Source of the DNA: an uncultured Pelagibacteraceae bacterium
GTDB taxonomy: Bacteria > Pseudomonadota > Alphaproteobacteria > Pelagibacterales > Pelagibacteraceae
Assembly (NCBI GenBank): GCA_902573235.1
Contig: CACGIZ010000001.1
Coordinates: 1 to 64,000 of the forward strand
Length of the DNA stretch: 64,000 nucleotides
Reading direction: 5' to 3'
Shown here piece by piece: positions 15,668 through 61,526 of this stretch. The translations under genes and the position numbers were made by a program. Position 1 is the first letter of the stretch. Each line of letters starts with the position of its first letter. The notes under the pieces are model-generated. The model was not told the origin of the DNA. It was given only the letters and a program-made list of their open reading frames with translations, and searched no databases.

Positions 15668-15709
15668 TTATACAATGCACGCAAGAGGTTGTATTTTGAG
15701 TCCGTAATT

Positions 15710-15736
15710 GAATCAAAAGTGAATCAAAACGTGAAC
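15710..15736 (-). promoter_or_regulatory. Candidate LexA-type (SOS) operator of umuDC
   Basis: GAAT-N7-GAAT (15710-15724) followed at one base wider spacing by GAAC (15733-15736), all within three near-repeats of TGAATCAAAA. The alphaproteobacterial LexA box is GAAC-N7-GAAC, so this is a near match in the right place, 43 bp before the umuD start. No lexA gene is in the window. Confidence 0.4.
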
Positions 15737-15801
15737 ATCAAAACTACATTTTGTATGCTTGTGGATAAGTTCAACCAAGGATAGTTTGATTTAATATCAA
15801 A

Positions 15802-37859: not shown

Positions 37860-37889
37860 CATTTTCACATACATGTAAGATTATTCATT

Positions 37890-38046
37890 TACGGGAGAGA
37901 CTACAGAATATCGTAGCGCCGAAGGAGCAACCACCCAGGAATCTCTCAGGCAAAAAGGACCGTAACATATTAACTCTGGAAAGAGATTTAATTCTCGCCG
38001 AAGGAGCAAAACTCTCAGGCAAATATACAGATGGGTACAAAGAGTT
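37890..38046 (+). promoter_or_regulatory. Tandem glycine riboswitch controlling gcvTHP
   Basis: Two glycine aptamers lie in series. Each carries the conserved core GCCGAAGGAGCAA (37918-37930 and 37997-38009) followed by a CTCTCAGGCAAA-type segment. Aptamer 1 spans about 37893-37962 and aptamer 2 about 37972-38046. The closing P1 stem of aptamer 2 pairs AACTCT (37972-37977) with AGAGTT (38041-38046), only 3 nt before the gcvT ATG, so the 3' strand of P1 contains the likely ribosome site. Folding would thus act on translation. Confidence 0.93.
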
Positions 38047-38049
38047 AAT

Positions 38050-39153
38050 ATGGAAACAAAAAAAACATCGCTGTACCAATTACATCAAGATTGTAATGCA
38101 AAGTTTGTTGAATTTGCAGGCTATCAAATGCCAATACAATATTCAGAGGGTATTGTAGAGGAGCATAAATTCACAAGAAATCACTCAGGTATTTTTGATG
38201 TTTCCCACATGGGTCAATTATTTATATATGGTGGTAAAGACTTAATCAAAGATTTAGAAAAAATCTTTCCTTTAGATCTTAAAAATTTAAAATTAAATCA
38301 CTCAAAATATAGCTTCTTGATGGATAAAGATGCTGGAATACACGATGATTTAATAATCACAAAAATAAATGAAGGTTTTTTAATAATTCTAAATGCAGCA
38401 TGCAAGGACAATGACTTCAAAATTTTAAAGGAATTATTGAGAGAAAAGTACAAAATGGTTTTGGATGAAAATAGATCTTTAATTGCAATTCAGGGCCCTA
38501 AATCATCTCAAATCCTTAATAAAGTTGTTGATGGAGTAAATGATTTAAATTTTATGTCAGGAAACTGGTTTTCGTTTGAAAACCAGAAAGTTTATATTAC
38601 GCGATCTGGTTATACAGGTGAAGATGGTTTTGAAATATCGATCCCGAATGATTTTGCAGATAAACTAACTAGAGAATTAATCGACAAAGGATCCAAATTA
38701 ATTGGTTTAGGCGCAAGAGATACTTTAAGATTAGAGGCTGGTCTATGTTTATATGGCCATGATCTTGATAAAGACAAAACTCCAGTAGAGGCAAATTTAA
38801 AGTGGGCAATTTCGAAAGAGAGAATATCTAAGGGAGATTTCATAGGCTCTGATATAATCATTAAACAATTAAATGATGGTGTCAGCAAAATTAGAGTTGG
38901 AATAAAACCTGAGGGAAGAATAATAGCTAGAGAAAAAACAAAAATATTCAATCAATCAGATGTTCATATTGGAGAAATCACTAGTGGTACATTTGGACCA
39001 AGTGTAAATGGACCTGTAGCAATGGGTTATGTAGAAAATGAATTTTCAAAAAAAGATACAAAAGTTTTTTTAGAGGTAAGAGGAAAAAAACATCCAGCTA
39101 GCATTTGTAGTTTGCCTTTTTATAAAAAAAGTTATGTTAAAGGAGTAAATTAA
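38050..39153 (+). CDS. gcvT: Glycine cleavage system T protein (aminomethyltransferase)
   Basis: Takes the aminomethyl group from lipoyl GcvH, releasing ammonia and giving methylene-THF. It is 367 aa with the family's [22 protein letters not shown] start, [22 protein letters not shown] (folate-binding), and [22 protein letters not shown] (catalytic Asp near the second half). First gene of the gcvT-gcvH-gcvP operon, controlled by the glycine riboswitch just upstream. One base overlap with gcvH. Confidence 0.97.
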
Positions 39154-58044: not shown

Positions 58045-58950
58045 ATGTTCGAACTTAAAAATGAAAAAATTGCCATCCCTTTAGTTCTATTTGCAGGTTT
58101 ACTTTGGTCTTTTGGTCCTTTGGTAGTTAGATATATGAACGAGCCTAATTTAGTTCCTTGGCAATATATTTTTGGAAGAGGTTTAACAATATTTATAATT
58201 TTAAATTTGTATTTATACTTTGAAGAAGGAATAAATTTTTACAAAAATTATAAAAAGATAGGTAAATCAGGTCTTGTTGGTGGAGTTGGCCTTGGAATTG
58301 CAATGATTTCATTTATTTATTCCATCACTAATACAAGTGCTGCTATTACACTTTTATGTTTAGCTGCGATGCCTTTCTTTACAGCATTGCTAGCATTTTT
58401 ATTTTTAAAAGAAAGAATTTCTTTAAATGTTTGGGTATCGATTTTTATTGCTACTATTGGAATAGTGATTATGGCGATAGGTAATACAGAAAAAAATTCT
58501 TTAGTTGGTTTTATTTTTGGTATCACTTCTTCCATAGGTTTTTCTATTTTTTCAGTTTCTTTAAGATGGAGAAAAGAAACTCCAAAGTTTACTACTGTGG
58601 CTGTTGCTGGTTTATTCTGTTTTATTTTTGCATCAGTAATGATCCTCATTAAAAATCAACCTTTTTTCGCAACAAGTTATAATAGCGCTATGTTTTCATT
58701 ACACGGAACTTTAGTTTGTTTAGGTTTGATTTTATATTCTATTGGATCAAAAGCTATTCCAGCTGCTGAGCTTACTTTGTTATCTCTAACTGAAGTGATA
58801 GGTGGTATTTTCTGGGTATGGTTACCTTTATTAGGTATTAATGAAGTTCCATCTACAAATACTATTGTAGGAGGCTTTTTTCTTTTTGTTTCATTAGTTT
58901 ATTACAGTCTTATTATGCGATGGAATAAAAGATATATTGCTCTTAATTAA
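58045..58950 (+). CDS. EamA-type DMT superfamily transporter
   Basis: A 301-aa membrane protein with ten helices in two EamA repeats (GLLWSFGPLVVRYM, PFFTALLAFLFLKERISL; second repeat LLSLTEVIGGIFWVWLPLLGIN). The substrate is unknown. It lies 12 bp before the creatinase gene and is probably co-transcribed with it and the amidinotransferase, which suggests a guanidino compound, amino acid or urea-like substrate (inference). Confidence 0.82.
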   Translation: MFELKNEKIAIPLVLFAGLLWSFGPLVVRYMNEPNLVPWQYIFGRGLTIFIILNLYLYFEEGINFYKNYKKIGKSGLVGGVGLGIAMISFIYSITNTSAAITLLCLAAMPFFTALLAFLFLKERISLNVWVSIFIATIGIVIMAIGNTEKNSLVGFIFGITSSIGFSIFSVSLRWRKETPKFTTVAVAGLFCFIFASVMILIKNQPFFATSYNSAMFSLHGTLVCLGLILYSIGSKAIPAAELTLLSLTEVIGGIFWVWLPLLGINEVPSTNTIVGGFFLFVSLVYYSLIMRWNKRYIALN

Positions 58951-58962
58951 AATCATAATTTT

Positions 58963-60180
58963 ATGGAACGTCCTGATTTTTTTACATTAAAGAATGGTGA
59001 AAAAGTAAAATTACCATTTTCTAAAAAAGAGTATGACGAGAGAGTAAAAAAACTAAGAGATGTCATGAGTAAAAATAATCTAGATATGATTATTTTGACA
59101 TCTATGCATAATGTTGCTTATTACTCTGGTTTTATTTATTGTTCGTTTGGTCGTCCTTATGGATGTATTATCACTCAAAAAAAAATTTCTACAATTTCAG
59201 CAAATATTGATGCTAGCCAACCATGGAGAAGATCACATTGTGATAATGTAATTTATACTGATTGGAAAAGAGATAATTTTCTTAAAGCGATAGTATCAAT
59301 AATTGGTAGAGACACTCCTCCAAAAAATATAGGAGTCGAAAATGATCATGTGACATTAGATATGAGAGAAAAAATTGGTTCAATTTTTACTTTCTCAATT
59401 TTTAGCGATATTTCAAAAGATTTGATGAAATTAAGAATGTTTAAATCGAGCGAAGAAATTTCAATAATTAAAAATGGCGCAAGAATAGCAGATATCGGTG
59501 GAAGTGAAATTTTAAAAAATATTAAAGAAGGCGCAACAGAGTTGGAAATTGCAATCGCAGGAAGAGACAAAATGGAAATTGAGATAGCAAAAACCTATCC
59601 TGACGCAGAATATATGGATACCTGGGTTTGGTTTCAATCTGGTATTAATACAGATGGCGCACATAATCCAAAAACAAATCGTAAAATTAAAAAAGGTGAT
59701 ATTTTATCTTTAAATACTTTTCCAATGATATCAGGATATTATACTGCTTTAGAACGAACATTATTTTTAGACTCTGTTGATGAGGAGTCATTAAAGGCAT
59801 GGGAAGCAAACGTAAAAGTTCATAAAAGAGGTTTAGAATTGGTTAAACCTGGAGTTAAGTGTGCCGATATATGTAATGAATTAAATGAATTATTTGCTGA
59901 ACTTGGATACTTGCAATATAGAACTTTTGGTTATGGACATTCATTTGGAGTTCTTTCTCATTTTTATGGAAGAGAAGCTGGTCTTGAGCTTAGAGAGGAT
60001 ATCGATACTGTTTTAGAGGAAAATATGGTAATTTCAATGGAACCAATGATCTTAATTCCTGAGGGAAAACCAGGGGCAGGTGGGTATCGAGAACATGATA
60101 TTTTAGTTATAAAAAAAGATGGTGCTGAAAATTTAACAAAGTTTCCTTTTGGACCAGAACATAATGTAATCAAAGGATAA
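58963..60180 (+). CDS. Creatinase (creatine amidinohydrolase)
   Basis: Hydrolyses creatine to sarcosine and urea. It is 405 aa, the family length, and is very like the Pseudomonas enzyme: YCSFGRPYG (Phe62, Arg64 for substrate), NIDASQPWRR, SGINTDGAHNP (catalytic His234), SGYYTALERTLF (Glu264), FGYGHSFGVLSHFYGREAGLELRED and SMEPMILIPEG (Glu360). It has the metal-free M24 'pita-bread' fold. Other M24 enzymes (Xaa-Pro peptidase, DddP lyase) lack this combination. Followed at once by the amidinotransferase gene. Confidence 0.92.
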   Translation: MERPDFFTLKNGEKVKLPFSKKEYDERVKKLRDVMSKNNLDMIILTSMHNVAYYSGFIYCSFGRPYGCIITQKKISTISANIDASQPWRRSHCDNVIYTDWKRDNFLKAIVSIIGRDTPPKNIGVENDHVTLDMREKIGSIFTFSIFSDISKDLMKLRMFKSSEEISIIKNGARIADIGGSEILKNIKEGATELEIAIAGRDKMEIEIAKTYPDAEYMDTWVWFQSGINTDGAHNPKTNRKIKKGDILSLNTFPMISGYYTALERTLFLDSVDEESLKAWEANVKVHKRGLELVKPGVKCADICNELNELFAELGYLQYRTFGYGHSFGVLSHFYGREAGLELREDIDTVLEENMVISMEPMILIPEGKPGAGGYREHDILVIKKDGAENLTKFPFGPEHNVIKG

Positions 60181-61296
60181 ATGAAAAAAAAAGATAAAAT
60201 TGTAAATAGCTGGAATGAATGGGACCCCCTTAAACATGTTATAGTTGGTAGAGCAGATGGAACCTGCATTCCCTCACCTGAACCAGCTTTAGATGCAAAA
60301 GTTCCAGAAGACTCTGATATGAGAGGTAAATTTGGTCCAAGAACTAAAGATACTATAGATAAAGCAAATCAACTTTTAGACGACTTTTCAAATATGCTTG
60401 TAAATAGAGGTATAAAAGTGGATAGACCAACACCGATAGATTTTAATCAAAAAACATCAACACCAGATTGGGAGTCAGAAACTATGTTTGGATGTATGCC
60501 TCCTAGAGATGTTTTATTAACTGTAGGAAATGAAATTCTAGAAGCAACGATGAGTTATCGATGTCGATGGTTTGAGTATTTATGTTATCGACCTCTTTTG
60601 AAAGATTATTATAATAATGATCCTAATATGAGACATGAGTCAGCGCCAAAGCCAAGACTTACAGACGCCGATTATCGCAAAGATTACTTGTCGGATAAAA
60701 TTGGAATTCAGAAAAGACTCAAATGGACTGAGGATAAATTTTTTGTGACAACCGAGGAAGAACCATTATTTGATGCAGCTGATGTATTAAGATTTGGAAA
60801 AGATTTAGTAGTTCAGCATGGTTTTACAACAAATTTAAAGGGTATTGATTGGTTAAAACGACATTATAAAGAACACAGAGTACATGCAGTAAATTTTCCT
60901 GGTGACCCTTATCCAATACATATTGATGCAACATTTACACCAATTAAAGAAGGTTTAATCATTAATAATCCTCAAAGAAGATTACCTAAAGAACAAAAAA
61001 AATTGTTTGAAGATAATGGCTGGAAGATAATTGATGCTGCCCAACCTGCACATAATGAGCCACCACCTCTTTGTTATTCTTCAGTGTGGCTTTCGATGAA
61101 TGTGTTAGTACTAGACCCGAAAACAGTATGCGTGGAAAAAAGTGAGAAGTATCAAGCAGAACAATTAGATAAATTAGGAATGGAGGTAATTCCAGTCGAC
61201 TTGAGGGAAGCTTATGCTTTTGGAGGAGGACTTCATTGTTGTACCGCTGATGTTTTCAGAGAAGGTGAACTAAAAGATTACTTTCCAAAACAATAA
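60181..61296 (+). CDS. L-arginine:glycine amidinotransferase (AGAT-like)
   Basis: Transfers an amidino group from arginine to glycine, giving ornithine and guanidinoacetate. It is 371 aa. Similarity to mammalian AGAT is plain: WNEWDPLKHVIVGRA, RPTPIDF, GNEILEATMSYRCRWFEY, FDAADVLRFGKD (Asp198), PYPIHIDATF (His247) and the Cys of FGGGLHCCTADV (Cys353) make up the catalytic triad. The ATG follows the creatinase stop without a gap. Alternative acceptors used by related enzymes (lysine, inosamine) are possible. Confidence 0.88.
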   Translation: MKKKDKIVNSWNEWDPLKHVIVGRADGTCIPSPEPALDAKVPEDSDMRGKFGPRTKDTIDKANQLLDDFSNMLVNRGIKVDRPTPIDFNQKTSTPDWESETMFGCMPPRDVLLTVGNEILEATMSYRCRWFEYLCYRPLLKDYYNNDPNMRHESAPKPRLTDADYRKDYLSDKIGIQKRLKWTEDKFFVTTEEEPLFDAADVLRFGKDLVVQHGFTTNLKGIDWLKRHYKEHRVHAVNFPGDPYPIHIDATFTPIKEGLIINNPQRRLPKEQKKLFEDNGWKIIDAAQPAHNEPPPLCYSSVWLSMNVLVLDPKTVCVEKSEKYQAEQLDKLGMEVIPVDLREAYAFGGGLHCCTADVFREGELKDYFPKQ

Positions 61297-61298
61297 GT

Positions 61299-61526
61299 TT
61301 AACCAGGATTTTTTTTTAAATATTCAATATAGTTTACAACTTCATTGAAACTTTCGTCAGGTATTTCTTTATAAGTTACATTAAATTTTTTTTTGACACA
61401 TATTGCTACATGAGCATAAGGGTTTCTACCTTTTGGATGATTTGGGTGATCTGGTAATTGTCCTTTGAGAAAATCTCCAGCTTCCTGAATAATTTTCCAC
61501 AATTTTACTTTGTTTTCTTTATTCAT
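61299..61526 (-). CDS. 75-aa hypothetical protein
   Basis: A small, basic protein with no recognised family. It has a HPNHPKGRNPYAHVAICV segment (residues 27-44) and a YKEIPDESFNEVVNYIEYL helix near the C-terminus; the YK-x-IP-x-x-x-F-x-E-V pattern faintly resembles short C-terminal modules in phage-type regulators, but this is weak. The start (ATG 61526) is 41 bp from the divergent MOSC gene, and it ends 2 bp from the amidinotransferase stop. Codon use looks like a real gene. Confidence 0.62.
   Translation of the reverse strand: MNKENKVKLWKIIQEAGDFLKGQLPDHPNHPKGRNPYAHVAICVKKKFNVTYKEIPDESFNEVVNYIEYLKKNPG

Follow-up and report, generated by a model that had tools for sequence, protein, structure and literature searches.

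Creatinases (creatine amidinohydrolases, EC 3.5.3.3) convert creatine to sarcosine and urea. The reactions of amidinotransferases, including the arginine:glycine amidinotransferase AGAT (GATM, EC 2.1.4.1), are described as reversible, and guanidinoacetate is given as a natural donor for both human AGAT (hAGAT) and the bacterial CyrA in an excerpt of PMC4887976. In SAR11 bacteria, a gene cluster has been named creatinase, and GBT/creatine-to-glycine genes have been described as enriched in the Red Sea (PMC3686209, excerpt). This gene set shares the creatinase with the locus described here, and it differs in that the main text of that study contains no amidino or guanidino terms. Sarcosine oxidation in SAR11 was treated by Sun et al., whose main text contains no creatin, amidino or guanidino terms (PMC3160333), and an excerpt of PMC11812461 describes marine sponge nitrifiers with creatinase. 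Herein, we analyzed a 64,000-nucleotide stretch from an uncultured SAR11 (Pelagibacteraceae) bacterium (the window), in which three tightly spaced genes on the + strand, at positions 58045-61296, encode an EamA/DMT-family transporter, a creatinase, and an AGAT-like amidinotransferase. Each part is of a kind already known; the literature searched seems to contain no description of the conserved block or of the amidinotransferase that is so widespread in SAR11. We tentatively interpret the block as a guanidino-acid salvage operon, which is the best placed of the readings weighed below, though short of probable.

The initial annotation had described the same compact block, and its layout and gene identities were confirmed. 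The transporter gene (58045-58950, +, 301 aa) comes first and passes the Pfam EamA model with 70.4 bits against a cut-off of 28.2. The creatinase gene of the M24 family (58963-60180, +, 405 aa) follows after 12 bp, and the AGAT-like gene (60181-61296, +, 371 aa) follows the creatinase with a gap of 0 bp. Using phmmer, the creatinase matched the solved creatinases 1chm, 7yto, and 1kp0 end to end over approximately 400 residues, with 533, 524, and 499 bits, respectively (E 5.5e-159 for 1chm, the best match). The next best match outside the creatinases was a Xaa-Pro dipeptidase (prolidase) with 104 bits, and the ectoine hydrolase DoeA reached 48 bits. Both PF00557 (M24) and PF01321 (Creatinase_N) scored above their cut-offs; no NCBIfam model scored above its own. 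Eight residues, which we take to have substrate and catalytic roles (F62, R64, H234, E264, H326, R337, E360, and H378), are present in 85 of 85 SAR11 sequences, so that the five named in the initial annotation (Phe62, Arg64, His234, Glu264, and Glu360) are all intact. They are likewise present in 20 of 20 Rhodobacteraceae sequences, whose frames were chosen by motifs including F62/R64 or H326, with none of the 20 loci dropped. From such close relatives of known function, creatinase activity is strongly predicted. The SAR11 gene differs from its solved counterparts in being flanked by genes for an EamA transporter and an amidinotransferase, and in that urease was undetected in 16 of 18 creatinase-bearing genomes of the genus, most of them incomplete.

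The AGAT-like protein matched vertebrate AGAT (1jdx/1jdw) with 297 bits (E 1.4e-87 to 1jdx) and 45% identity over 355 aligned residues. SxtG, HsvA, and StrB scored 220, 203, and 173 bits, respectively, making AGAT the closest solved relative. In the alignment to AGAT, the catalytic triad Asp198 (codon 60772-60774, +), His247 (60919-60921, +), and Cys353 (61237-61239, +) corresponds to human D254, H303, and C407, and it is kept in all 112 rows (107 SAR11 and 5 Rhodobacteraceae), in agreement with the triad first proposed. The active-site residues D110, D249, R266, and S301, whose human equivalents presumably act in the AGAT active site, are also conserved. The differences from AGAT are N300 to Y244, M302 to I246, K356 to V302, W408 to C354, and a one-residue insertion before the flap discussed below. 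Amidinotransferase activity is strongly predicted, and glycine/guanidinoacetate as the acceptor/donor is predicted with moderate confidence. Arginine deiminase (ADI) and dimethylargininase (DDAH) were considered and rejected: the DDAH models scored 24.7 and 23.2 bits against cut-offs of 300 and 340, and the ADI model PRK01388 scored 19.5 bits against 414. The broad PF02274 model was the sole one of this kind that the protein passed (26.1 vs 22.8).

Conservation of the gene pair was examined in three overlapping samples. The genus survey comprised 61 genomes, own included; absences in it are soft because most of these genomes are incomplete (the window's own is 75% complete). A creatinase orthologue was found in 18 of the 61 (79-100% identity, one partial) and AGAT in 49 (74-100% identity, two partial), and AGAT directly follows creatinase in all 18 creatinase-bearing genomes. 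In an order-level draw, AGAT was found in 150 of 197 genomes (E ≤1e-100), made up of 108 genus genomes and 42 from family f88; nine genomes of the genus were listed as lacking AGAT, 27 further genomes without a match were unlisted, and the tally by genus was 5/10. Creatinase was found in 42 of the 197, comprising 41 genus genomes and one of f88 (G742). The two genes are adjacent by coordinates in 40 of these 41 genus genomes and lie on different contigs in G847; the creatinase match of G843 was reported with an in-frame TAA. The third sample, the 80 closest AGAT loci, is a biased set chosen as best by identity, and all its records are titled Pelagibacteraceae or Candidatus Pelagibacter. Creatinase lies upstream on the same strand in 78 of the 80, within 11 bp in 77 as measured from hit ends. 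The exception, L198, carries a 570-aa gene (L198:5296-7008), presumably TPR/sulfotransferase-like, between the two, and the remaining two loci (L141 and L147) are cut at the contig end. The transporter lies within 18 bp before the creatinase in all 75 of these loci that were found to carry both.

Neighborhoods were also drawn with gene calls from a simple script, covering 25 main-type Pelagibacter loci out of 41 sequences given. In all 25, window included, the transporter is the gene immediately before creatinase or AGAT. Creatinase is present in 10 of the 25, and the other 15 have the transporter and AGAT without it, making creatinase an optional member of the block. The pair is conserved, yet not obligate. 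A threonine aldolase gene directly follows AGAT in 10 of the 25 drawn loci and comes after it in 30 of the 80 closest loci; the window's own block lacks it, unlike many relatives. Family f88 shows a different picture, as AGAT is without a same-strand neighbor in 11 of 13 drawn loci, both neighbors being on the other strand. In the other two (L343:7900-9069 and L348), AGAT is followed by a same-strand M24 gene, which in L343 is ectoine hydrolase-like (TIGR02993 at 444.8 bits, below its cut-off of 613; 321 bits to solved DoeA). The creatinase of G742 (L336:2205-3419) is 82% identical, lies on another contig than AGAT, and is followed by a DUF1330 gene; its transfer is possible. Median ratios of nonsynonymous to synonymous change (dN/dS) against the window were 0.067 for the transporter, 0.072 for creatinase, and 0.036 for AGAT, with synonymous sites nearly saturated (median proportion of synonymous differences, pS, 0.63-0.66).

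The AGAT tree suggests how this arrangement arose. On this tree, creatinase presence (88 with, 16 without) requires 4 changes vs 15 in shuffles, and the aldolase label (40 with, 69 without) requires 14 vs 32. The tree is a quick one, with most branches weakly supported, near-copies that would cluster anyway, and Rhodobacteraceae rows uncounted. When it was rooted with Rhodobacteraceae, seven main-type SAR11 rows without creatinase branched deeply, and a crown of 98 tips took in all rows that bear creatinase and three small groups that lack it. This pattern is most simply explained by a single insertion of creatinase between the transporter and AGAT, in a unit that already existed, and three losses. 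AGATs of loci with and without creatinase showed no difference at the triad or at the two flap positions.

In the proposed salvage operon, creatine would be taken up from seawater and converted by creatinase to sarcosine and urea, with sarcosine feeding glycine and one-carbon (C1) metabolism. The AGAT-type enzyme would transfer the amidino group through the usual Cys-amidino intermediate, most likely in the assimilatory direction from guanidinoacetate and ornithine to glycine and arginine. The amidino nitrogen would thereby be kept as arginine and glycine would be freed, while the EamA transporter would move one substrate or product. The direction of the AGAT reaction is only weakly indicated, as is the substrate of the transporter.

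Glycine is the point at which these activities may converge. Threonine aldolase releases glycine, and the aldolase that follows AGAT in L085 scored 356 bits to 1v72 and 348 bits to an L-threonine aldolase, with its best NCBIfam model, GntG, far below cut-off. Because the aldolase too releases glycine, it would share this end point with creatinase (via sarcosine) and a reversed AGAT. SAR11 bacteria are reportedly auxotrophic for glycine and serine, a statement attributed to Tripp in 2009, and together with the shared end point this favors salvage over synthesis. The salvage direction is chemically open since amidinotransferases are described as reversible and guanidinoacetate as a donor for hAGAT and CyrA (PMC4887976, excerpt).

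Urease bears on the fate of the creatinase product. Urease matches above cut-off occurred in only 4 of the 61 genomes of the genus, two of which carry creatinase; 2 further matches were weak, and urease was not found in the complete creatinase-bearing genome G012. Urea is therefore probably lost in most of these bacteria, a conclusion softened by the incomplete genomes, and a route that keeps the amidino nitrogen without passing through urea would help. Urease as a constant partner of the block was ruled out by the same counts. In a narrower form of the salvage reading, a reverse AGAT would assimilate dissolved guanidinoacetate with ornithine, yielding arginine and glycine directly and bypassing urea and ammonia; a creatinase captured into the operon would add creatine as a further source. 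We regard this specific version as unlikely.

Several observations weigh against the salvage operon, beginning with the AGAT flap. Residues 242-246 (60904-60918, +) read D-P-Y-P-I in the alignment, where human AGAT has D-P-N-P-M at 298-302. Y244 and I246 thus replace N300 and M302 of the vertebrate enzyme, and they do so in 112 of 112 rows, 5 of them from Rhodobacteraceae. Glycine specificity is not implied because these two residues differ. The initial annotation had stated that the enzyme makes guanidinoacetate; its relationship to AGAT stands, and the simple label of a guanidinoacetate maker does not, given the changed acceptor flap. The flap closes over the substrate, and it reads DMHPM in AmtA, which has lysine as acceptor, and DIFPS in CyrA (PMC4887976, excerpt). 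A sequence unlike all three may point to an acceptor other than glycine, such as lysine, beta-alanine, GABA (gamma-aminobutyrate), taurine, or a polyamine, with creatinase as a later and loosely related passenger in the transcript. Such an acceptor would also fit the isolated AGAT genes of f88 and the absence of a conserved context in 39 Rhodobacteraceae loci (see below). It is opposed by the closer match to AGAT than to SxtG, HsvA, or StrB, and by CyrA, which accepts glycine despite changes at the same two flap positions (PMC3684758, excerpt). The SAR11 enzyme resembles CyrA/AoaA, the bacterial AGAT of the cylindrospermopsin pathway, in carrying an aromatic residue in place of N300 and a residue other than methionine at M302; it differs in the flap as a whole (DPYPI vs DIFPS; PMC4887976, excerpt), a comparison that covers the flap and not the full sequences. 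L106, a relative at 62% identity, has the flap D-P-F-P-S, close to that of CyrA. Because the glycine enzyme CyrA is also without N300 and M302, the flap is compatible with glycine without establishing it, and we judge a different acceptor to be somewhat unlikely.

The same side of the balance holds the ureohydrolases. PF00491 members were found in 53 of the 61 genus genomes, and contig 5 of the window's own genome (L301:11366-12352) encodes one that is closest, among solved structures, to 3-guanidinopropionase and guanidinobutyrase. It lies in a stretch that also holds an ectoine hydrolase-like gene, to which the M24 gene of L343 is 74% identical, and what we take to be an ABC transporter. Guanidino acids could therefore be handled without AGAT, and the closest matches of this ureohydrolase would again suit an acceptor other than glycine. 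Regulation adds no support for salvage either. An Rfam scan at E up to 0.5 found no element near the operon, by which riboswitch control was ruled out, and the glycine riboswitch of the window (RF00504, 65.2 bits, 37882-37972, +) lies 20 kb away, just before an open reading frame at 38050 that presumably encodes gcvT.

The dependence of the two enzymes on each other is also limited, as 31 of the 49 AGAT-bearing genus genomes are without a creatinase orthologue. The functional pairing suggested initially thus holds for adjacency and fails for mutual dependence. The same count bears on a net arginase, in which AGAT would make guanidinoacetate from arginine and glycine and creatinase would hydrolyze it to glycine and urea. 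The tight spacing of the two genes (77 of the 78 loci holding both, L198 excepted) would suit such a relay; the excess of AGAT over creatinase (150 vs 42 of 197 genomes), the agmatinase-family ureohydrolases already present, and the similarity of the creatinase to enzymes named creatine amidinohydrolase make it highly improbable.

Finally, EamA carriers are often exporters, which fits synthesis rather than uptake. With the transporter as upstream partner in every main-type Pelagibacter locus drawn, AGAT might run forward, from arginine and glycine to guanidinoacetate and ornithine, with guanidinoacetate kept as a solute or exported and creatinase serving an independent creatine catabolism. Both AGAT and CyrA are described as working in this direction physiologically (excerpts of PMC4887976 and PMC3684758). 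The glycine-serine auxotrophy ascribed to SAR11 speaks against spending glycine in this way. No use for guanidinoacetate in SAR11 cells is known to us, which also counts against it, and a methylating partner was not recognized. As initially stated, no methyltransferase stands alongside: none was found among eight proteins scanned in and around the block. PF13649 matched 15, 13, and 11 proteins in the window's genome (G000), G012, and G022, respectively, and no guanidinoacetate methyltransferase (GAMT) was recognized among 17 of the 28 matches of the first two, in a weak search by eye. Two PF13649 proteins compared with solved structures likewise had no GAMT among their matches; L315 and L326 received no assignment, and GAMT may escape this model. 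A forward AGAT is thus distinctly unlikely, and the salvage operon remains our tentative preference.

It is plausible that this ocean bacterium handles guanidino compounds for nitrogen and glycine/sarcosine, as the initial annotation proposed. AGAT-like genes occur in 150 of the 197 genomes drawn from the order, so the function of the enzyme, whichever it is, is widespread in surface-ocean bacteria. If guanidino compounds are assimilated, the glycine that SAR11 requires would be tied to creatine and guanidinoacetate from animals and phytoplankton, and a testable prediction follows as to the dissolved nitrogen compounds on which the cells draw. If AGAT indeed runs in reverse, it would be a route to organic nitrogen not yet described, in a heterotroph that ranks among the most abundant in the ocean. 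Open-licence PMC literature, searched mostly by title and abstract, yielded nothing on a SAR11 amidinotransferase or a creatinase-amidinotransferase pairing, and the terms creatin and amidino are absent from PMC12636525 and PMC10030771. The earlier view that the pairing is not a described pathway accordingly stands for the pair and not for the SAR11 creatinase itself, which had already been published (PMC3686209, excerpt).

Around the block, a moeA-like gene whose MoeA domains pass Pfam lies 47 bp upstream of the transporter on the same strand, preceded by a gene that we take to be mobA-like. On the opposite strand, a 75-aa open reading frame (61299-61526, -) lies 2 bp downstream of AGAT; its cluster counts 19 members among the 41 compared sequences, and it had no Pfam or NCBIfam match. 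A promoter and terminator scan was uninformative, with 16 promoter-like sites vs 21.5 expected and 0 terminators. Elsewhere in the window, the SAR11_0636 small RNA was matched at 15687-15776 (+) with 117.8 bits.

Relatives outside SAR11 were also sought. A draw from the phylum, own included, gave any match in 19 of 398 genomes, and a viral origin was rejected as viral contig searches returned no AGAT or creatinase relative. Among 295 Rhodobacteraceae genomes, 61 had an AGAT match (E up to 0.001); six of these showed weak matches alone, and the other 55 have an orthologue, in some cases a partial one. Creatinase was found in 199 (E ≤1e-60). The gene caller located AGAT in 39 of the 45 neighborhoods submitted to it. 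Creatinase lies beside it in 2 of these (G527 and G649), and no conserved AGAT neighbors were seen in the 39, so that Rhodobacteraceae context was ruled out as a clue to AGAT function. In a single Roseobacter-type locus (L097:3340-9798), the gene immediately before AGAT is of the agmatinase family; the locus also carries alpha/beta hydrolase, flavin reductase, luciferase-like monooxygenase, and aldehyde dehydrogenase genes ahead of AGAT.

Further AGAT paralogues were observed. Some Pelagibacter genomes carry a second one with 75-76% identity (L345:8616-9722, also L105, L344, L346, and L347). Its neighbors in L345 are EamA transporters, a 2-oxoglutarate (2OG) oxygenase-type gene, a luciferase-like monooxygenase, a thiamine pyrophosphate (TPP) enzyme, and AA_synth, with TauD and HD-oxygenase genes resembling those of phosphonate degradation upstream. 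In G004 (L095:4433-12513), another paralogue (74-75%) follows a homocysteine S-methyltransferase-family gene and one for an 801-aa FAD/GcvT-type protein, and precedes genes for a methyltransferase, a Rieske oxygenase, and a DddP-like M24 protein.

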